Of a DNA stretch of 64,000 nucleotides, positions 15,419 to 28,597 are shown one piece after another; the stretch's first letter is position 1; each line of letters opens with the position of its first letter. Both the position numbers and the translations under genes were made by a program. Source of the stretch: Gracilinema caldarium DSM 7334 (GTDB taxonomy: Bacteria > Spirochaetota > Spirochaetia > Treponematales > Breznakiellaceae). The notes under the pieces were generated by a model. It ran no database searches. It saw only the letters and a list, made by a program, of their open reading frames with translations, and was not told the DNA's origin. Where the stretch lies: assembly GCF_000219725.1 (NCBI RefSeq), contig NC_015732.1, positions 1,674,001 to 1,738,000 of the forward strand, read 5' to 3'.

Positions 15419-17602
15419 ATGGTAATTAAATATAATCGTTATTTGTTACTATTTTTTATAGTATTATTGTACAGTATAAATTTTGTATGGGCTCAATCAG
15501 GACCAAAAGCTCTTTTAATGTACGCTGATGATGACAGCCTTATCCAAATAATTACTAAGACAGGTGTCAGTCGTAGCGTTTCTATTGGTGATGAAATCCT
15601 ACCAGGAGAAACGATTAAGACATTAGCAACAAACGCAGAATTAAAATTGGATCCTAACGGAAGTATCATCAAAATCGCAAGAAACACCAGCTTTAAAATA
15701 GAAGGACTTGCGGGCTCTTCTGGAAAAGATACCAATGAGTTTGCCCTAGTAAGTGGAAAAATCCGTACTGTTGCTGCAAAAACAGCTGGAAGTAATAAAT
15801 ATCAGATAAAAACCCCCTCTGCAGTATGTGGTGTACGAGGTACAGACTTTAATATGCTCGTAATTGAAGGTGCCCGAGATGCGGTATACGTACAGAGGGG
15901 CTTAGTAGAATTTGCAAGGACCCTTGCAGATGGCACTGTACAGCCAATTCTGGTGGGAGCAGGTCAATTTGCTGATGTTTTTGGTCCTAGTTTTATTCCA
16001 TTCACATTTACTCAAGAACAGCTCGCTCAAGAATTTGTAGATCTTGATGAATTTAAAACCGTCGATCCATTATCGGTTCCCCAGAATGAGGATTCCAAAT
16101 CATCTAACCAAGAAGAAAAGCCAGCAGAGGATGCCAAGAGCACTACCAACGATGCAAATACTCAATCAGAACAAAAATCTACTGCATCTGGTAAAAAAGC
16201 TTCAGCGCAGGAATCAAAAATGATGGCTTGGCTTGGTGATATGCTGGGCTTTGAAATTGGTTCAGTTGTCATCGATGGGAATACCTATTCTAAAGCTGTA
16301 GTTCAGCCAACCTTTAATATGGGTAAATTCAAAATCGCTCTCTATTTACCCATTATTTATACTAACGATCTATTTAATCCAGACAGCTGGTATCAGCCTA
16401 ATGGTAATAATGAATGGTCCTTTGGATCAGAATACTGGGGAACAAATTATACTAAAGGGGCTCAAGATGCATTGCAAGATTTAGCATTAAAAATTCGTTA
16501 TATTGAATATGGTCAACCCATGGTAGATCCTGTATATCTGAAAATCGGCAATCTTTCAGATATGACTATAGGGCATGGGGTACTCATGCGTAATTATGCC
16601 AATAATGCAGATTTCCCATCTATAAGAAAAGTTGGTGTTAATGCAGGATTTGAAGGCAAAACCTTTGGATTTGAAGGGATTGTAAACGACCTTGGAAAAC
16701 CAGAAATATTTGGTGGAAGATTAAAACTATCTTTCATTGGTATAAGTGCTATTGCAGATATTAATCCAGTAGGCGCTCTAACAGATCAAGAAAAAGAACA
16801 AATAGGAGATCCAATGATTATTGGGTCAGCTTTTGATATTGATATTCCTATACTTAAATTAAGCGCATTTAGCCTGAGAGCATTTGCCGATGTAGCAGCT
16901 GTAGCTCCGTATAATCGAGTAGACACTGGACAACTTAGTTCTGGTTTCCAATATCAAGCTATTTATGATGATTCCTATGGCAATAATTTTAATGCCTTAA
17001 GAAACTATGGGGTTATTTCTGGATTCATGGGTAAATTCATCTTTGTAGATTGGCGCTTAGAATATAGATATTACCGGGGAGCCTATAGACCAACCTTTTT
17101 TGATGGCACCTATGATCGGAATAGAGTAAAATATGCTAAGGCCTTCTATGATTTACTTACTACAACAAACCCATCTAACGATGTAACCGTACATGGCATT
17201 TATGGTGAAGCTGGATTTGACCTCTTTAGAGATAAGATCCAATTTACTGCGGGGTACATGGTGCCCTGGAGTCCCGATAGTTCTGCATCATGGAGTTATA
17301 TTTCGCAACAAGACTATATTCTTGCTAAACTAGTACTCAAAAAAGGCCTCGTACCTTTCTATGATATTTCTGGATCATTAACCTATGCACATACGGGTTT
17401 TGCCTACGCCTTAAGTAGGGATAATGCTCTGGTTAATGAAAATACCATACTTACAGGAGAAGTTGTTATTCCAATAGCAAGTACTGTTGATTTTGCTATT
17501 CTGCTTACTAATAATGCGGTTTATACAGTCGATCCTACTTTAGCAGACCCAGAATATACAACCAGTCCGTCTCTTACCTTTGAAACCAGAATTCATTTCT
17601 AA
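15419..17602 (+). CDS. FecR-domain protein fused to an outer-membrane beta-barrel
   Basis: 727 residues. Signal peptide to about residue 25; FecR domain at about 45-170 with IGDEILPGETIKTLATNAEL, an RTVAAK stretch and YQIKTPSAVCGVRGTDFN; a low-complexity Glu/Lys/Ser/Thr/Asn linker at about 215-265; then a barrel of about 450 residues ending in ETRIHF. FecR domains in other bacteria sense or bind in the periplasm and connect to TonB-type receptors. Here the domain would sit at the periplasmic side of its own barrel. The start follows AGGAGG. It is paralogous to the preceding gene over the barrel part. Confidence 0.82.
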   Translation: MVIKYNRYLLLFFIVLLYSINFVWAQSGPKALLMYADDDSLIQIITKTGVSRSVSIGDEILPGETIKTLATNAELKLDPNGSIIKIARNTSFKIEGLAGSSGKDTNEFALVSGKIRTVAAKTAGSNKYQIKTPSAVCGVRGTDFNMLVIEGARDAVYVQRGLVEFARTLADGTVQPILVGAGQFADVFGPSFIPFTFTQEQLAQEFVDLDEFKTVDPLSVPQNEDSKSSNQEEKPAEDAKSTTNDANTQSEQKSTASGKKASAQESKMMAWLGDMLGFEIGSVVIDGNTYSKAVVQPTFNMGKFKIALYLPIIYTNDLFNPDSWYQPNGNNEWSFGSEYWGTNYTKGAQDALQDLALKIRYIEYGQPMVDPVYLKIGNLSDMTIGHGVLMRNYANNADFPSIRKVGVNAGFEGKTFGFEGIVNDLGKPEIFGGRLKLSFIGISAIADINPVGALTDQEKEQIGDPMIIGSAFDIDIPILKLSAFSLRAFADVAAVAPYNRVDTGQLSSGFQYQAIYDDSYGNNFNALRNYGVISGFMGKFIFVDWRLEYRYYRGAYRPTFFDGTYDRNRVKYAKAFYDLLTTTNPSNDVTVHGIYGEAGFDLFRDKIQFTAGYMVPWSPDSSASWSYISQQDYILAKLVLKKGLVPFYDISGSLTYAHTGFAYALSRDNALVNENTILTGEVVIPIASTVDFAILLTNNAVYTVDPTLADPEYTTSPSLTFETRIHF

Positions 17603-17629
17603 TCGTTTAGGATAAAAATATTAAAAGAT

Positions 17630-17672
17630 AAATGGGGATTCCTTGAGTTCTTCTTGGATATCCCCTTTATTC
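17630..17672. terminator. bidirectional terminator between convergent genes
   Basis: Stem GGGGATtCC / GGatATCCCC, with AAA and TTT extending it, separates the plus-strand barrel operon from the minus-strand TPR lipoprotein gene. T-rich sequence follows on the plus strand and A-rich sequence precedes it, so it can serve both directions. Confidence 0.6.
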
Positions 17673-17703
17673 TTTTAATAAAATCCGAAATCTGTAACAT
17701 AAA

Positions 17704-18627
17704 TTAATACTTTTTTTCATGGTCTTTATTATCATAGAATAAAGTCTGAAGTGTTCGTTTTTGAGTTTCTGTTAAACGAGTGTCAGCAAGCAAGACATCA
17801 AATTGTTCCTTATTTTGATAACCTGCTGAAAGAGCTGATTCAATATGTTTAAATCCTTGGTTATCCAAAGGGTCCGCGAATATGATAAGCCGACCGATAC
17901 GAAAATCCACCTCACCTTTTTGTAAACCAGCTAACTCTTCCCGATTCGTTTGTTTAATTTTTTTTAATGCTTCTATTGCACGACTATACAATGCAAGTTG
18001 CTCTGCAACTTCTGCATATTCTTTAAGAATTTGTGGATCATCGTTTTTTTTAAGCCATTGTGAATAATGATCAATCGCTTCTGGGTATGCTAGCATTTTT
18101 TCTGTTCTTGCAAGAAGAAGTAATGCGTCTTTATCATTACCATCATCGGCCTTCATTTCTTTTAATAATTGATAGGATTCTGAATACTTTTGTATACCAT
18201 ATAACACGAGGGCATATCCATATTTGCTTTCTTTGCTTTCAGGAACTAGTTCAATTACCCTTCTATAATACAGTTCTGCCTTTTCAAAATTTAAAGCCTT
18301 CAGATTTGAAAAAGCAGCAGCCTTAAGTAAAATAACATTATCCTTATCTTTGTTTAGTAAGATTTCAAAGATACTAGCTGCTTTTGTATACTTTTGTTGC
18401 TGGAAAGCAATTCTCCCAAGATAATACATGGAAGCATTCTTTGTTTTTGAGTATTTGCTTGCTTTCTGAAACCAAATTTCAGCTTCTGTATATTTACCTA
18501 AATCATAGTAAGCTTTTCCTAGAGAATATAATTCTTCTTCAGATATAGATGCTGGCCCAGAAACACAGGATAGTACGAGTAAATATACAGCAATTATACA
18601 TGTAAATCCAAAATAAGCAGGTTTCAT
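17704..18627 (-). CDS. TPR-repeat lipoprotein
   Basis: 307 residues with a lipobox LVLSC after a hydrophobic signal. About six tetratricopeptide repeats follow, beginning EEELYSLGKAYYDLGKYTEAE, with the pattern continuing to about residue 230. The C-terminal part (FRIGRLIIFADPLDNQGFKH) is more loosely ordered. TPR proteins in spirochaete envelopes commonly scaffold other proteins. The gene starts 3 bp after the stop of the UPRT-like gene and ends the ispG gene run. Confidence 0.8.
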   Translation of the reverse strand: MKPAYFGFTCIIAVYLLVLSCVSGPASISEEELYSLGKAYYDLGKYTEAEIWFQKASKYSKTKNASMYYLGRIAFQQQKYTKAASIFEILLNKDKDNVILLKAAAFSNLKALNFEKAELYYRRVIELVPESKESKYGYALVLYGIQKYSESYQLLKEMKADDGNDKDALLLLARTEKMLAYPEAIDHYSQWLKKNDDPQILKEYAEVAEQLALYSRAIEALKKIKQTNREELAGLQKGEVDFRIGRLIIFADPLDNQGFKHIESALSAGYQNKEQFDVLLADTRLTETQKRTLQTLFYDNKDHEKKY

Positions 18628-20227: not shown

Positions 20228-21361
20228 CTAAGGTCGTTCATTAATTGGTTCTATATAGGGATTTTTCAATTGCATCTGAGATCGTTTTTGCCATTCGCTT
20301 GTTCTGGTATTTTTTGATAGCACCGTCCATAAATACATTGCTGTACTTCGCCGTCCTGTTGCATATAATGCTGCAGCTAAATAATAGTTAGTTTTATAAT
20401 AATCTACATCTTGTATATAAGTTTCAAGATCTGAAAATCGGACGAGCCTATGTATTAAGTCCAAGTAGTCATTAAAAACAAAACCATATTCACGAAGCTG
20501 ATATTCTTTTATCAACATAGAATTCTGAATAAGAAATGCATAGGTTAGATGTTCAATCGATTTATCATACCGACCTGTTGCGTAATAATAGAATCCAAGT
20601 ATCCGATGAGCTCGTTCTGCTTGTGTATCCTCATGTCTATAGAGTGTAAGAAAGCGGTTTACCCCATCATCGATTAAGGTTCTAAACATCGCTGTTCTCA
20701 TAAAGGATTCGGAACGGGAATCACCATTCCAGAGGCTGTCCTTTGATACAATTTCTATTAATGTTTTTTCATATTGGGGATAATTACCGAGGATATGATA
20801 CATATCAGCAATTTTATATTGTATTTGGGTCGTAAATTCTTCGTTACCAACAATATGCTGCTGAGAAAGGGCTCTCATATATTGCTGTAGTGCAATAGCA
20901 GCTTCTCCTTCTTCCCGATACACTTCACCAATCCAATATTCCGCTTCAGGATACAAACGTAATATATCAAATAATGAAATTATTTTTTGTGCAGAATCTT
21001 GAATTATCGATTCAGGAAAATGATAATGTATTTCAGATAAAATATCAGAGATCCGCTTATTAGGTCTATCTTTTAAATATAATGAAATCTTATTGATAGA
21101 ATCTCCTAATACTCGGACTTCGTCTGCTGAAAGGAACTCTATAAAATCTTTTTGCATCCTCAAATACAATTCATTTCTTGTTCTTTTTGCATCCTCAAAG
21201 GCGATAAGGGCTTTCCCGTACGTCTTACTACGATAGTATTGTTTACCCCTTTCCAGTAACAACCAATAGGGTTCACCGTTTGTTTGTGCAGATAGTGGCA
21301 GTACGGTAATGTTGATGAACAGGGTGCTTACTACAAATAAGATTACACCTCGATATTTCAT
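20228..21361 (-). CDS. exported TPR-repeat protein
   Basis: 377 residues, signal peptide cleaved after PLSAQ. TPR-type helices: YWLLLERGKQYYRSKTYGKA near the N-terminus, YWIGEVYREEGEAAIALQQY in the middle and RILGFYYYATGRYDKSIEHL near residue 265. It overlaps the stop of ispG by 4 bp (ATGA), so translation is coupled. It probably acts in the periplasm. There is no lipobox. Confidence 0.78.
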   Translation of the reverse strand: MKYRGVILFVVSTLFINITVLPLSAQTNGEPYWLLLERGKQYYRSKTYGKALIAFEDAKRTRNELYLRMQKDFIEFLSADEVRVLGDSINKISLYLKDRPNKRISDILSEIHYHFPESIIQDSAQKIISLFDILRLYPEAEYWIGEVYREEGEAAIALQQYMRALSQQHIVGNEEFTTQIQYKIADMYHILGNYPQYEKTLIEIVSKDSLWNGDSRSESFMRTAMFRTLIDDGVNRFLTLYRHEDTQAERAHRILGFYYYATGRYDKSIEHLTYAFLIQNSMLIKEYQLREYGFVFNDYLDLIHRLVRFSDLETYIQDVDYYKTNYYLAAALYATGRRSTAMYLWTVLSKNTRTSEWQKRSQMQLKNPYIEPINERP

Positions 21362-22476
21362 AACTTTTCCAGCTCTTCTTTGAATGCCTGGTCTGCCTCA
21401 GTAACAGCGACAGTTCGAACAATGTTACCGTGTCTAAAAATGAGAACCTTATTACCCGCACCAGTGATACCAATGTCAGCATGGCGTGCCTCACCGGGAC
21501 CATTAACAGCACACCCCATGATGGCCACTGTGATATCTTTTTTCATCATATAGAGGGTATCACGCCACCGTTCAGTAAAGGCATGGGTATCGAAACTGTT
21601 TCGACCACAACGGGGGCATGATACGATAATAACTCCCTGTCCGTTTACTCCCTTGCCACTAGAATCAGCCACTGCGCTAACAATTTCCCGCCCCGCAATG
21701 ACTTCGTTTTCCATCGTATCCGACAGGGATACCCGAATCGTAGCGCCAATACCTTCCGCTAAGAGGGTATGCAAAGCAATAGAATTGCGAACGATACCTG
21801 GTATAAGGGGACCTGCTTCAGTCACCCCTAGATGAAGGGGCACATCGGTTCTTTTAGCAATCAGGCGGTTAGCTTCCAATGTATCATAAATAGAAGAAGC
21901 CTTCATGGATAAAAGTACATTTTTAAAATTCAGGGTTTCAAATATTTCCAATTCCCGCTCCGCAGTGCTTACGAGAGCTTCAGCCCGTGTCATTTGTTGT
22001 TCGTCTACAGCTTTTCGCAGATCTGCTGGCAAGCTTCCTGCATTAATTCCAATTCTGATAGGAACTCCCTTTTCAGCAGCCTTAGCTGCAACTGCTTTAA
22101 CCTTATCAAGGGAGCCGATATTACCAGGATTTATCCGTATTTTAGCTATAGGGAAATCGAGACAGCGAAGGGCAATTTTATAATCGAAGTGGATGTCTGC
22201 GACGAGGGGCATGGTTACCCGCTTGGCAAGTTCACCCAAGACATCCGCAGCAGCTAGATCAGGTACTGCAAATCTTAAGAGGCTGCAGCCAAGTTTCTGC
22301 AGTTTATCAATCCGCGTTTCTATATGTTTACCCGATTCACCCTGTAAAGATGTTTCATCGAGCCGATCCTTCCACATGGTTTGAACTGCCACAGGATAGG
22401 CACCGCCTACCAGCACAGAAGAAAGGTGGTCAAAACCACCAATTTTTACAACCCGGACCATTTGATTTTGTTTCAT
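21358..22476 (-). CDS. ispG: 4-hydroxy-3-methylbut-2-enyl-diphosphate synthase
   Basis: Sixth enzyme of the MEP isoprenoid pathway; converts MEcPP to HMBPP with a 4Fe-4S cluster. The TIM-barrel half contains VQTMWKDRLDETS and LVADIHFDYKIAL; the C-terminal cluster domain has CPRCGR and MGCAVNGPGEARHADIG, giving the three Cys and one Glu ligands. It is the short two-domain bacterial form (about 370 residues). The chosen start, ATG 22476, is MKQNQMVRVVKIGG; the longer frame runs into a structured leader. The start lies just 19 nt from that structure, and four envelope genes follow closely. Confidence 0.95.
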   Translation of the reverse strand: MKQNQMVRVVKIGGFDHLSSVLVGGAYPVAVQTMWKDRLDETSLQGESGKHIETRIDKLQKLGCSLLRFAVPDLAAADVLGELAKRVTMPLVADIHFDYKIALRCLDFPIAKIRINPGNIGSLDKVKAVAAKAAEKGVPIRIGINAGSLPADLRKAVDEQQMTRAEALVSTAERELEIFETLNFKNVLLSMKASSIYDTLEANRLIAKRTDVPLHLGVTEAGPLIPGIVRNSIALHTLLAEGIGATIRVSLSDTMENEVIAGREIVSAVADSSGKGVNGQGVIIVSCPRCGRNSFDTHAFTERWRDTLYMMKKDITVAIMGCAVNGPGEARHADIGITGAGNKVLIFRHGNIVRTVAVTEADQAFKEELEKL

Positions 22477-22495
22477 GAGTTTCCACAACAAAATA

Positions 22496-22576
22496 CGGAG
22501 AATCCGGTTCCTCAATGGCTTCTAAAGCGTTAATGTTTAGAAACCTTTTACAGCAATCATGCTGCCGGGTTCTCCG
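22496..22576 (-). promoter_or_regulatory. nested inverted repeats upstream of ispG (leader RNA or attenuator)
   Basis: Outer arms CGGAGAATCCGG (22496-22507) and CCGGGTTCTCCG (22565-22576) pair over 11 of 12 positions. Inside are two further hairpins: GGCTTCTAAA/TTTAGAAACC with a 9-nt loop (22517-22545) and CAGCA-ATCA-TGCTG (22551-22564). On the minus strand the outer stem is followed by TATTTTGTT, then the ispG start. This looks like a three-way junction acting as terminator or attenuator between the V-ATPase operon and ispG. I know of no named family with this shape. Confidence 0.55.
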
Positions 22577-22598
22577 TTGCTCCGTGGAAGGTAACCGC

Positions 22599-23024
22599 TT
22601 AACCAGCAATACCCAAGGAGAAAACCATCACAAAGAGGGCTACGGTTTCGATAAGACCGACGACCAAAATATAGTTACCAAAGCCCTGTCCGGTTTCAGC
22701 AAGAGCATCGGAGGCATAAGCTGCAGCCTTGCCCTGATACAGAGCAGAAGCACCCATGGCAAGCCCAGCAAAAAGTCCAACTGCGAGCTTACCAACTCCA
22801 TCGAGCCCCCCGCTGCGGATTGCGTTCATCAATATAAAACCATAAATGGTTTGAGTAAGCGGAGCGCCGGCAAAGGCCACTAACAGGAATGGTACAGGCT
22901 TATTCTGCAGAAAACACTTTTTCCAAGACCCAATTGCGGTCATACCGGCAATACCGGCTCCCAGTGCAGAACCAAAAGCTGAAAGACCCAATGCAGCAGC
23001 AACGCCAATCATTCCGATATCCAT
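22599..23024 (-). CDS. atpK: V-type ATP synthase subunit K (rotor ring)
   Basis: 141-residue double-hairpin proteolipid forming the membrane rotor ring. Helix 4 carries the ion-binding Glu126 (GLIETVALF); helix 2 has LTQ at residues 56-58 and helix 3 has Gln97 (YQGKAAA). These positions match the Na+ ligands of E. hirae NtpK (Leu61, Thr64, Gln65, Gln110, Glu139). The first hairpin lacks a carboxylate, usual for this double-hairpin type. AAGGAG precedes the ATG. Last gene of the V-ATPase operon. Confidence 0.93.
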   Translation of the reverse strand: MDIGMIGVAAALGLSAFGSALGAGIAGMTAIGSWKKCFLQNKPVPFLLVAFAGAPLTQTIYGFILMNAIRSGGLDGVGKLAVGLFAGLAMGASALYQGKAAAYASDALAETGQGFGNYILVVGLIETVALFVMVFSLGIAG

Positions 23025-23051
23025 AATCTTCTCCTTATCATGTAATATGCC

Positions 23052-24911
23052 CTATTGCTGGGCTGTTTCCTTGACAGCAAAGGGCGAATATTTGACACCA
23101 GACCATTCCATTCCGAGATGGCCGGAGTATTCCAACATATTAAGCCGTACACCATGAACGACTACCGAGAGAGCGCTCATTGCCAGGTTTAATCCATGAC
23201 CAAAGAACAGAATTAACGCTCCAGCAAGGATTCTGACCATACCGGCGGGAAGCCCAGCAGCCATGCCATTAAAGCTTTCAGCAATGGCAAATCCTGCAAG
23301 TCCAACCGCAAAGAGACGGATATAGCTGATTATATCAGAGAAACTTGAAACTGCAGACAGGAAGGTGGGCAGGAAGTTGGCAAAGCTTTTAAGAATGTTT
23401 GCTATAAAATTGCCTCCCTTCTGTTCAGCAAAAACAAAATAGGTTGCAAGGCCTCCACCAATCATCCAGATTGCAAAGGGTGGTACGGGAAAGGCGGTTT
23501 TATCGAGAACCAGGTTCAGAACGAGGAAATAGAGGCCCAATACCATGGAAAGCCATCCGAGCTGTGCAAAGGCGGTCAGCGATGGCAGGGCTTTTTTAAT
23601 ATTCTTCATATGGGCCCATACGAGCTGAACTGTTCCAATGATAAAGCAAAGGTGCTTTATGTTTTGCTGAACGAGCCGGGCAGCTTCCTTTGGTGCTAGT
23701 GAAGGATTTGGTCTGAAGGGTGGTATTACCAAAGCTTTCAGGAAAGCGGGAAGGCTGTCATAAGGCAAGGCAAACCAGGTTCCGTTAATGGCACCCCATA
23801 TAATAGTAACCGAAGAAAGCAATAGTAATAACAGAATTCCGTCTGCGAATTTGCCGGTCTTCTTTTTTCCCTTAAAACCAAAATAGAGACTTAAAAGGAG
23901 AATTAGGACACCATAACCTGCATCTCCAATAATCATGGCAAAAAATAGAGAGAAAAATACGAGGAATGACATACTAATGTCATATTCGTGATACCCCGGG
24001 ACCGTGCCTAAGAGGTCAAATATGGGCTGTACAATCCGAATATAGGCCGGATTTCGTACAAGCGTAGGCGGCCTATCTCCTTCATTGGGGTCATCGATAA
24101 TGAGTGCCCATCCATACTCTGCGGCGGCTCGTTTCAGCTTACCCGCTGCATCAGCGGGAATATACCCGGTGATCCAGGAAATTGCCAGTTCCGGTGGGGT
24201 GTCCTCTGTAACTTCCATACTGGCCTTGGCGGCTTCAAACTCTGCCTGTTCGTTTAACCTCTGGAGTTCCCGCTCTATGAGATACATCTGAGAAGAAAGC
24301 TCTGAGAGTTTCTTTTCTATATCGGCGATGGTTTGTTTACGCTGAGCAATCCGATTTGAGAGAGCAGAATATGAAAGTTCAGGCAATGCAAAGGGCTGTT
24401 CGCCAGGGATCGGGTCCCCTACCACAACACAGCGTACGAGGGTCTTATCTTCAGAAAGAACTATTATAGAAACTGCGGGATCAAGCTTCTCGTACACCTT
24501 TTTAGGCAGTTCATAGGGGATAAGCGTAATACCCTGCTTTCTTAGGTCTTCCAGGCTAGCCGGTTCAAAATCACCCCAGGCTGCGATTCTATGTAATTCC
24601 TTTATGTCTGCTGCAAGGAGCTCCTGTTCCTGTTTTTTCTGATCAGCTAAACGCAGAACCTCCTGTATCAGTGCAGCGGGCTCTGTTTTTTGAACGATAC
24701 TGGTATTGGTTTCTTCCTTAGTAGCGGCATTACGAAGTATTCCCAATGCATGTTCAGCCTGAATTTTTAGTTCCATAACGCTGCTGAGCCCATCGGAGCT
24801 AACATTTTTACGTTCCAGATGAACCACTCCCAGCTTTCGTAAGGCCTCCAGTGAGGCTTCCCGTTCACGATCAAAAACAACAAGAGCGACCTTTTTCATT
24901 GGTACAATCAT
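23052..24911 (-). CDS. atpI: V-type ATP synthase subunit I (stator a-type)
   Basis: 619 residues. The N-terminal cytoplasmic half (to about 310) contains coiled coil (AQRKQTIADIEKKLSELSSQ) that contacts the peripheral stalk. The C-terminal half has about eight membrane helices, with the FSDIISYIRLFAVGLAGFAI segment holding the conserved Arg that faces the rotor carboxylate. The start overlaps the atpD stop as ATGA, and atpK follows after 27 bp. Confidence 0.95.
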   Translation of the reverse strand: MIVPMKKVALVVFDREREASLEALRKLGVVHLERKNVSSDGLSSVMELKIQAEHALGILRNAATKEETNTSIVQKTEPAALIQEVLRLADQKKQEQELLAADIKELHRIAAWGDFEPASLEDLRKQGITLIPYELPKKVYEKLDPAVSIIVLSEDKTLVRCVVVGDPIPGEQPFALPELSYSALSNRIAQRKQTIADIEKKLSELSSQMYLIERELQRLNEQAEFEAAKASMEVTEDTPPELAISWITGYIPADAAGKLKRAAAEYGWALIIDDPNEGDRPPTLVRNPAYIRIVQPIFDLLGTVPGYHEYDISMSFLVFFSLFFAMIIGDAGYGVLILLLSLYFGFKGKKKTGKFADGILLLLLLSSVTIIWGAINGTWFALPYDSLPAFLKALVIPPFRPNPSLAPKEAARLVQQNIKHLCFIIGTVQLVWAHMKNIKKALPSLTAFAQLGWLSMVLGLYFLVLNLVLDKTAFPVPPFAIWMIGGGLATYFVFAEQKGGNFIANILKSFANFLPTFLSAVSSFSDIISYIRLFAVGLAGFAIAESFNGMAAGLPAGMVRILAGALILFFGHGLNLAMSALSVVVHGVRLNMLEYSGHLGMEWSGVKYSPFAVKETAQQ

Positions 24912-25510
24912 TCTGCGGCCCTCTCCATTCCACGTTTGGCAATTTTGCCTCGTACCACTGCTGCGGTCTGTTGATCACCCAAATAGACCCTTATTTTCTT
25001 AATGTTTGCCTTGGTCTCGGGAATCTTAACCTTTTCAAAAAGATTAACCCGCTGGGTTGTGGTACGCAGTTCCCGTTCAAGCCGGCGTTGCTGCTCTTCC
25101 AGGGTTTTGGCTTCCAGGTCGAGAAGCAGCACCTGCCGCATCCGTTCCACCGCCGTATCGAGCCACAGGGGCGTCCTGAGGAGGTCATAGGGTTGCACCT
25201 CGAATTCGGCCCCCTTAAAGACGGGAATTTCAACACCGGCAATGTTCCCTGTTTCTATTCTTAAAGAAGTCACAGACAGCAGTTCCGGGGTAAAGTAGCC
25301 CTGCTCACCAAAGACGGCTATCCAGGACTTAAACTGTTCATTCACCCTATCCTTTTCGGCTATGAGGGTACGGATCCGGCTTTCGGTGTTCCGGATTTCC
25401 ATTTGGAGCTGTTGTTTTTTAAGCATGAGCGTCGGAAGATAGCGCTGATACATTTTCAGTGCATCCTTCTGTTTTTTCAGCTCATTCTTCGTAAGCTTAA
25501 TCTTAGCCAT
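24908..25510 (-). CDS. atpD: V-type ATP synthase subunit D (central stalk)
   Basis: 200 residues, long antiparallel coiled coil of the central rotor shaft. N-terminal KIKLTKNELKKQKDALKMY and C-terminal RVNLFEKVKIPETKANIKKI are family signatures. GGAGG is 4 nt before the ATG. It lies directly behind atpB; no subunit F gene is found beside it, as in other spirochaete operons. Confidence 0.95.
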   Translation of the reverse strand: MAKIKLTKNELKKQKDALKMYQRYLPTLMLKKQQLQMEIRNTESRIRTLIAEKDRVNEQFKSWIAVFGEQGYFTPELLSVTSLRIETGNIAGVEIPVFKGAEFEVQPYDLLRTPLWLDTAVERMRQVLLLDLEAKTLEEQQRRLERELRTTTQRVNLFEKVKIPETKANIKKIRVYLGDQQTAAVVRGKIAKRGMERAAE

Positions 25511-25523
25511 AGCTCCTCCGGCC

Positions 25524-26822
25524 TTAAGCTTTTTTCGGCCAGTATGTATTGATGAGTTCGGTTCTTAATCCCGTTTCTTCGGGGGAGAAACAGGAAGCAA
25601 GGATTTCCCAGCCCAGGTCAAGGGCCCGTTCCAGGGGGATGTTAACCGAAAGATCCATCATTTCTTTTTCAAAGAGTTCGCCGTATTTCAGAAGTTTAGA
25701 GTCCCAGTCGGACATCATAAAGCCCATGGCCTTCTTTTCCAGGGTATCCTTATAGGCGGCATACAATTTAATCATACCGTCCATAAGCGCTCGATGGTCT
25801 GGTCGGGTTTTACCGTTAACCTGCTGTTTCAAACGGGAAAGGGATCCGAAGGGTTCGATACGGCCATTTTTCAAGTAGTACTGGCCTTCGGTAATATACC
25901 CCGTATTGTCCGGCACCGGGTGGGTTACGTCGTCACCGGGCATGGTGGTAACACCAAGGATGGTGATGGACCCGGCGGTATCAAAATCGACGGCCTTTTC
26001 ATACCGGGCAGCAAGCTGGCTGTAAAGATCACCAGGATAACCACGGTTAGAAGGTACCTGTTCCTGGGTAATGGCGATTTCCTTCATGGCATCGGCAAAG
26101 TTGGTCATGTCGGTAAGCAACACCAACACATCCTTGCCCTGAAGGGCGAACTGCTCTGCCACTGCGAGGGAAATATCGGGGACCATAAGACATTCAACCA
26201 CAGGGTCTGCCGCGGTATGTACAAACATGACGGTCCGGGAAAGGGCGCCCCCTTCTTCCAAAGTATCCTTAAAGTAAAGGTAGTCGTCGTATTTGAGCCC
26301 CATACCGCCCAAAATAATGACATCGACTTCGGCTTGCATGGCGATCCGGGCCAATAGTTCATTGTAGGGTTCACCAGAAACGGAGAAAATCGGGAGTTTC
26401 TGTGAAACCACCAGGGTATTAAAGAGGTCGATCATGGGGATACCCGTGCGGATCATCCGCCGGGGAATGATCCGTTTGGAAGGATTAACCGAAGGACCGC
26501 CGATGGGGATTAGGTTTTCCTTCATTTCCGGTCCCTTATCCCGGGGCGCGCCGGATCCGGTAAAAACCCGGCCCATTAAGTTTTCTGAGAAGGAAACCCG
26601 CATGGGGTGTCCCAAGAATCGAACCGTATCGCCGGTAGAAATACCGCGGCCGCCGGCAAAGACTTGCAGAGATACCAGGTCATCCTGCAGACGGATTACT
26701 TCTGCCAGGGAAGTTCCAAAAGTAGTATCAATTTCGGCAAGGTCTCCGTAGCGTACATCCGTTGCACGAACGGTAATGACGTTACCGGTAATGGATTCTA
26801 TTTTACTGTATACCTTTTTCAT
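25524..26822 (-). CDS. atpB: V-type ATP synthase subunit B
   Basis: 432 residues, non-catalytic partner of subunit A in the A3B3 head. Signatures: [12 protein letters not shown] in the N-terminal barrel, [38 protein letters not shown], and [19 protein letters not shown]. There is no Walker A GxxxxGK sequence, as expected for B. GGAG lies before the ATG; atpA is 14 bp upstream. Confidence 0.96.
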
Positions 26823-26836
26823 TTCGCCACTCCGTC

Positions 26837-28597
26837 CTAAGCAAGAATCTTTTCCGCGTTTTTATCAAGACCCGCGGAGCGTTCGGAAACTGCATCCAGA
26901 ATTTCCTTTTCCAGAGCTACAAAACGTTCGCTCTTCCATTCAGAACCATTGTAGTCCAGGAATTTCTGCCTGAGCCGGTTAAACCAGCTTCGGGCATCTT
27001 CCTTGTCTTTAAACTTAAACTGGGAAGCAAGAATGTTCAGCAGTATGGCAAAGACATGTTTCTGCCGTTCAGGGCTGACCGCCGCATCGACCGCATCAAA
27101 GGAGTTTTGCTGGAAATATACAGAATCGAGGAAATTACCCTTTAGATAGATGATAAAGTCATCCAGACTGGTGCCTTCCTCACCAACAACCTTCATCATC
27201 TGTTCTACTTCACTGCCGCGGAACATAAATTTATGGGCATAGGCAACTTTTTCTGAGTCAATGATACCGCGATATTTGGACCAGGAATCCAGAGGATGAA
27301 TAGCTGGGTACTTGCGGGCATCGGAGCGTTCACGGGAAAGGCCATGAAAGGCGCCGACAACCTTAAGTGTTGCCTGGGTAACCGGTTCCTCAAAGTTACC
27401 CCCTGCGGGAGATACGGTACCACCGATGGTTACAGAGCCGGTGCGGCCATCCTTTAGCCGGACAATACCAGCCCGTTCATAGAAGGCGGCAATAACCGAT
27501 TCAAGGTAGGCCGGGAAGGCTTCTTCACCGGGGATTTCCTCGAGCCGGCCTGACATTTCACGCATAGCCTGGGCCCAGCGGCTGGTAGAGTCCGCCAGAA
27601 GCAGTACATGGAGTCCCATCTGGCGATAGTATTCCGCCAGGGTTACCGCCGTATATACCGATGCTTCCCGGGCGGCTACGGGCATGGAGGAGGTATTACA
27701 GATAATAATGGTCCGTTCCATGAGGGATCGGCCCGTTTTGGGGTCCAGCAGTTCAGGGAATTCCTTAAGGGTTTCTACAACCTCACCGGCCCGTTCACCA
27801 CAGGCAGCGATGATAACCACATCCACATCGGCGTGGCGGCTCGTGATCTGCTGAAGTACTGTCTTTCCGGCTCCGAAAGGACCGGGAATACAATAAGTGC
27901 CGCCACGGGCTACAGGGAAGAAGGTATCGATAAGTCGGACCTTGGTGACCATGGGGTCCACAGGCTTCAGCCGTTCAGCATAGCAGTCGACCGCCCGTTT
28001 TACCGGCCACCGGAAGGACATGGCTACGGGGATTCGGTTACCCTTGCCATCGTCCAGTTCAGCGATGGCATCCCGTACGTGGTAAGTTCCCTTTGGTTTG
28101 ATAGAAGCAACCGTATAACGGCCATACATGTTAAAGGGAACCATAATCTGATGGGTAAAGGCTCCCTCCGGTACGGTACCCAGGGTGTCTCCCCGCTCTA
28201 CCGTATCGCCGACCTTGGCAACAGGGGTAAATTCCCATTCTGCATCCAAAGGAAGGGCATCGAGGTAAATTCCCCGTTCGAGGAAATAGCCCGCTTCTTC
28301 TGCCAGCTTTGGCAGGGGGTTTTGCAGACCATCAAATACCTGGCCAAGCAGGCCGGGACCAACCTCTACAGAGAGCATATCACCGGTAAATTCGACCATA
28401 TCACCGACAGCGATTCCCTTGGTCATTTCAAAGACCTGAAGGAAGCAAAGATCGCCCCTGATACGGATGACTTCACTTTTTAAACGTTTATCTTGAACCT
28501 TTACATAGCCGACTTCGTTCATCGAGACAATCCCGTCGAAACGAACACCGACCATATTGCCATTAACGGCTACTACTGTACCCTTAGTTCCGATCAT
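26837..28597 (-). CDS. atpA: V-type ATP synthase subunit A (catalytic)
   Basis: 586 residues. Nucleotide-binding P-loop GPFGAGKT near residue 235, the A-specific bulge domain ([18 protein letters not shown]), the [20 protein letters not shown] region and the C-terminal helical domain. Catalyses ATP hydrolysis or synthesis coupled to rotation. It starts by ATGA overlap with the DUF2764 gene, so it is translationally coupled. Confidence 0.97.

Follow-up and report, generated by a model that had tools for sequence, protein, structure and literature searches.

The gap between the gene for subunit K of a V-type ATPase and ispG in T. caldarium holds an element whose outer stem and basal CCAC/GUGG helix, judging from related genomes, have been kept while its interior is free to change. 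Elements of this type, intercistronic hairpins, are commonplace; here one is reported for the V-ATPase-ispG operon. We place at about 0.5 the probability that this hairpin uncouples the output of ispG from that of the V-ATPase within a shared mRNA, acting as a barrier to decay and a weak terminator, with its base over the ispG ribosome site. In a provisional ranking of roles, a decay barrier with weak termination would come first, a partial terminator second and translational coupling third.

Location and fold of the hairpin

The window analysed here is a stretch of 64,000 nucleotides from the T. caldarium (Gracilinema caldarium DSM 7334) genome, which comprises 3,239,340 bases in one contig and contains the element as a single copy. 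The element occupies the stretch from the K stop (22599) to the ispG ATG (22476), both genes being on the minus strand. Further V-ATPase genes in the same direction precede the K gene, and ispG shares its last 4 nt with the next gene (21361). The parts are as follows, each with the evidence that defines it in brackets.

22599..23024, minus strand: gene for V-type ATPase subunit K (proteolipid), the upstream cistron (open reading frame and translation; orthologue directly upstream of ispG in the family)
22481..22589, minus strand: complete intercistronic hairpin, from TTCCAC (about 10 nt past the K stop) to GTGGAA (last base 4 nt before the ispG ATG) (folds, inverted repeats, conservation)
22584..22589, minus strand: 5' strand of the basal helix, TTCCAC, of which CCAC is kept in 4/4 genus members as well as in sister genus G025 (inverted repeats, comparison)
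22565..22577, minus strand: 5' arm of the outer stem, ACGGAGAACCCGG, of which CGGAGAA is identical in 4/4 genus members (inverted repeats, comparison)
22551..22564, minus strand: inner hairpin 1, 5 bp with a 4-nt loop (arms 22551-22555 and 22560-22564), in the window species only (fold, comparison)
22517..22545, minus strand: inner hairpin 2, arms of 10 (22517-22526 and 22536-22545) with one minus-strand G-U, in the window species only (inverted repeats, fold, comparison)
22495..22507, minus strand: 3' arm of the outer stem, CCGGATTCTCCGT, of which TTCTCCGT is identical in 4/4 genus members (inverted repeats, comparison)
22487..22494, minus strand: interrupted U-rich run, ATTTTGTT (inverted repeats, fold)
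22481..22486, minus strand: 3' strand of the basal helix, GTGGAA, at the ispG ribosome-binding position (inverted repeats, comparison)
21358..22476, minus strand: ispG (MEP pathway), ATG at 22476-22474 (open reading frame and translation)

The sequence-only reading of this DNA had described three inverted repeats, nested in a way unlikely to arise by chance. The repeats are present where it placed them, and the improbability of the nested whole is borne out. Minimum free energy of the minus-strand RNA is -35.8 kcal/mol against -19.4 (sd 3.2) for dinucleotide shuffles (z -5.2), that of the plus-strand RNA is -34.1 kcal/mol against -18.7 (z -5.4), and on either strand 0/200 shuffles are as good. 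After correction for GC content, just 3 of the 7988 96-nt segments taken over the 64 kb on both strands out-fold the element, and these three lie near 17.6 kb, where gene ends converge. Taken by themselves, the outer arms (22495-22507 and 22565-22577, complementary at 12 of 13 positions) are unremarkable, with 15 inverted repeats of such quality in the window and 6-12 in random sequence. As a separate observation, the most stable fold of the window for its GC content, at 17585-17712 between two convergent genes, is probably a bidirectional terminator.

Because the minus-strand ends TTCCAC (22589-22584) and GTGGAA (22486-22481) also pair, the structure extends to the ispG ribosome site. The U-rich run ATTTTGTT has two alternative partners, the purine strand of the basal helix and AACAAAAT in ispG codons 2-5 (22465-22472). 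Pairing with the latter forms a second hairpin (22465-22494, minus strand), with the ispG SD and ATG inside it, in competition with the basal helix for the run; a similar second hairpin (TTTCATG / CATGAAA) occurs in G001 and G003.

Conservation in the genus and its sister genus

We compared the window species with three other genomes of its genus (G001, G002 and G003; two of the genus genomes are close to each other) and with the sister genus G025. The element stands at the same junction of K and ispG in all three other genus genomes, and the gaps share a common frame, CCACGGA-N4-CGGAGAA ... TTCTCCGT-T-rich-TGTGG-6 nt-ATG, whose four blocks CCACGGA, CGGAGAA, TTCTCCGT and TGTGG are identical in 4/4 genomes. 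Spacing within the genus is likewise constant, the K stop lying 11-12 nt before CCAC and GTGG exactly 6 nt before the ATG (4/4). Identity to the window species at fourfold-degenerate sites is 52-55% in K and 32-36% in ispG, so that unselected sequence would be largely randomised. The corresponding gap of G025, CCACGGAGACACGGAA..TTCCGTGTCCGGGTGG, is also a hairpin with like ends, without the T run.

Across the five sequences 89.7% of cells are paired, against 39-57% with the partner slid, and RNAalifold independently recovers the same two-storey helix. Three pairs have changed on both sides, against at most one in the slid controls; these compensatory changes support selection on the structure, in a small sample. 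The observed covariation is reached by 11/500 shuffles and is thin, since four genus genomes only contribute to it, two of them close. A structured RNA element before ispG, as had been proposed, is thus upheld by its presence at one junction in 4/4 genus genomes and by outer-stem changes that preserve pairing.

The interior of the hairpin gives a different picture. It is unrelated among genus members, to which the outer stem and basal helix alone are common: G002 has one long hairpin with TCGACG/CGTCGA where the window has CCGG/CCGG, and in G001 and G003 the hairpin is plain and its loop region short. Because the interiors of the relatives differ in this way, the three-way junction is specific to T. 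caldarium, a filling of the loop in that species alone. The sequence-only reading had made conservation in relatives the test of its proposal; the outer stem is conserved there, but the three-way junction, although the window sequence does fold into it, lacks its inner hairpins in the three genus relatives. We also discarded a possible reading frame across the element (..EAIEEPDSPYFVVET..), since no such interior is shared by the relatives.

These comparisons bear directly on the suggestion that the element is a riboswitch or attenuator before ispG that senses an MEP metabolite or redox state. The compact three-way junction of the window fold, the position ahead of a pathway gene and the two mutually exclusive partners of the U-rich run would suit such a role. 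The junction and inner hairpins are, however, the very parts absent from the other three genus members, so that no conserved ligand-binding core was found. A search of Rfam, also at low threshold, gave no family at the gathering score, the best weak match, 17.2 of 40 bits, being to a lncRNA family of vertebrates. A ligand-binding leader is therefore unlikely, and we regard the regulated element as a whole as highly improbable; the proposal of ligand sensing for an MEP gene is not supported.

It had also been remarked that one mismatch on each strand becomes a wobble on the other, and that pairing alone does not decide the strand of action. The remark is correct for the single mismatches, which go both ways: the minus-strand A-C is a plus-strand G-U, and the G-U of the inner hairpin is the reverse. 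The alignment adds minus-strand G-U pairs at columns 25-121 in all five sequences and at 31-113 and 37-107 in some of them; on the plus strand these would be C-A mismatches, and the only G-U gained there is the one at 22503/22569. With fair confidence we take the minus strand as the strand of action, because it carries both flanking genes, it alone has a U-rich run after the stem, and the wobbles of the relatives are mostly minus-strand G-U.

Candidate roles within the V-ATPase-ispG message

V-ATPase K and ispG are probably read as one message. A sigma-70-like promoter was sought on the minus strand in the gap and the K gene, and none was found; as the stem also ends 18 nt from the ATG, read-through from the V-ATPase operon is the simplest account of ispG transcription. 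Co-directional K and ispG stay together across relatives, which fits an intercistronic hairpin within one transcription unit. With transcription of ispG by read-through, the hairpin would lie inside the message and would hold ispG output below, and independent of, the output of the abundant K proteolipid. Its main role would be to hinder 3'-5' mRNA decay where the V-ATPase part ends, by analogy with malE-malF and assuming decay by 3'-5' exonucleases in spirochaetes, with possible contributions from some termination at the interrupted U run and from the basal helix covering a weak ispG ribosome site. In E. coli, stable hairpins within operons and without a U run protect upstream segments from 3'-5' decay (PMC5927463). 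The T. caldarium element resembles such decay-barrier hairpins (malE-malF of E. coli, puf; PMC5927463) in being stable, in lying between an abundant upstream product and a downstream one and in lacking a proper U run. It differs from malE-malF in that the E. coli case consists of multi-copy REP repeats, whereas the T. caldarium element is single-copy and a putative decay barrier.

The same stem could instead be a Rho-independent terminator that closes the V-ATPase operon, with partial read-through into ispG. A stable stem ending immediately before ATTTTGTT, at the end of the V-ATPase gene set, is what such a terminator looks like, and a T-rich run follows the stem in 4/4 genus members. The ATTTTGTTG after the stem is, however, not a largely uninterrupted U run, and the run is missing in G025; the T runs can pair within the basal helix, and the loop is branched and 57 nt long. 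Terminators were scored after d'Aubenton-Carafa with a short, approximate script of our own. The window element scores -33 and its relatives in the genus -18 to -29, where other 3' ends in the window have +38.8, -4.6 and -7.7. Full termination would moreover leave ispG without a promoter, as the gene is too close to the stem for one of its own. Elsewhere in the family, the junction of G018 carries CAGGGGGCCCTGAGGGGGTTCCCCTG and TTTTTGTTTTT with a terminator score of 37.3 and that of G017 scores 13.0; these are good terminators, and termination may therefore be the older role. The interruption of its U run suggests that the window copy should terminate weakly, so that an end of V-ATPase transcription here, as had been suggested, is possible but predicted to be weak. 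We consider a terminator as the primary function possible, though on the unlikely side.

The position of the basal helix raises translational control of ispG, in which the base of the hairpin would hide the ribosome site and ribosomes finishing K would open it, coupling ispG translation to that of K. CCAC/GTGG pairs at the ribosome-binding position with the constant spacing given above (11-12 nt from the K stop, 6 nt to the ATG), and in each of the five genomes most of the ispG SD region is paired (unpaired 0.05-0.32). The likeness to intercistronic helices that cover ribosome sites thus lies in a base set over a weak SD at fixed spacing; the unlikeness is an ordinary opening energy (8.2 kcal/mol, 17th among the 55 starts of the window) and the putative nature of the coupling. 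Coupling would also have less need of the upper stem, yet this is the best conserved part. Given the rank of the opening cost, occlusion by the basal helix is a contribution at most, and coupling as the main function appears distinctly unlikely.

The junction across the family and a possible palindromic origin

We sampled 70 genomes of the family from an ispG search, a sample that leans to genomes with the most similar IspG. K lies directly upstream of ispG in 68 of them, the exceptions being G026 and G069, with a gap of 0-339 nt. Some gaps are of 0-9 nt and leave no room for a terminator or promoter, so K and ispG must be read together in those genomes. Of the 37 gaps that are 40-240 nt long, 18 have a folding z < -2, mostly with hairpins whose sequences are unrelated (as with CCGGA..CCCC/GGGG..TCCGG in G116 and GCCGCGAATC/GATTCGCGGC in G097), and a hairpin at this junction therefore seems to have been favoured repeatedly. 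The corresponding part of the window is 21358-28597 (minus strand), and in the family the ends of K and ispG sometimes touch.

The ends of the element also resemble a dispersed palindrome of the Spirochaetota. The 5' end, CCACGGAG-NN-ACGGAG, matches the palindrome CCACGGAGACACGGAG...CTCCGTGTCTCCGTGG at 14/16 positions (15/16 in G025), where the motif was chosen from the G025 locus and its dispersal elsewhere found afterwards. Exact CCACGGAGACACGGAG occurs 40 times in G044, 6 in G304 and 4 in G351, with 0 in the reversed control of each. Many copies are long palindromes whose other end is CTCCGTG-N-CTCCGTGG and whose interiors are unrelated, and palindromes with ends CCACGGAGACACGGAG / CTCCGTGTCTCCGTGG, 66-214 nt long, occur in several Spirochaetota families. 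The loci are:

G044: L241-L246, L253 and L254
G304: L247 and L248
G351: L249
further loci: G039, G042 and others

The gaps between K and ispG in G100, G128 and G066 (L191, L193 and L195) carry AACCACGAAG/CTTCGTG-type repeats, like a sister form of this palindrome.

One reading of this resemblance is that the element is a non-functional remnant of such a repeat, with copies in other Spirochaetota having interiors as unrelated as those of the element. The element is like the REP or dispersed palindromes of Spirochaetota (REP survey, PMC12306157) in ends nearly equal to CCACGGAGACACGGAG..CTCCGTGTCTCCGTGG of family f5 and other genomes and in an interior that varies between copies. It is unlike them in that the T. 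caldarium genus has one copy per genome, where a REP would have many, and in a diverged 3' end (TTTGTGG for TCCGTGG). Exact CCACGGAGACACGGAG is absent from the T. caldarium genome, the motif in G000 is not above the reversed control, and the genus shows no excess of motif copies, the K-ispG element being among the best CCACGGAGACACGGAG matches in each genus genome. Other CCACGGAGACACGGAG matches in the genus and G025 lie inside open reading frames and were rejected as copies, as were the short chance matches, mostly within coding genes (dnaX-, tatD- and mutS-like), that were all BLAST of the element returned in 59 relatives. A remnant would, moreover, have decayed, whereas the arms are identical in four genomes although neutral sites of ispG are near saturation, and stem changes keep the pairing. 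We therefore find a functionless remnant very doubtful.

An origin from the palindrome may nevertheless hold even if the element has a function. An ancient insertion kept as a useful hairpin would explain the conserved ends and free interiors, convergence being the alternative. We tentatively suggest, as a possibility that is not the likelier one, that a palindrome captured in the ancestor of the two genera became a fixed control of the ratio of pump to isoprenoid enzyme, and that other genera evolved their own hairpins there. Literature searches for the palindrome string and for a link of ispG with the V-ATPase in spirochaetes found no paper.

Comparison matters for how such folds are read: an eye-catching three-way junction can be lineage-specific filling of a loop, with the plain outer stem as the conserved part. 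In most of a spirochaete family ispG, whose enzyme catalyses one step in making isoprenoids, travels with the V-ATPase operon, and a hairpin recurs at the junction with unrelated sequences. A cultured, free-living thermophile (Spirochaeta caldaria H1T, optimum 48-52 C; PMC3739177) thereby allows a test of how a single message can meet such different demands for two proteins. If the capture of a palindrome and its separate replacement in other genera are true, the junction of K and ispG would be a control site conserved in position and free in sequence.
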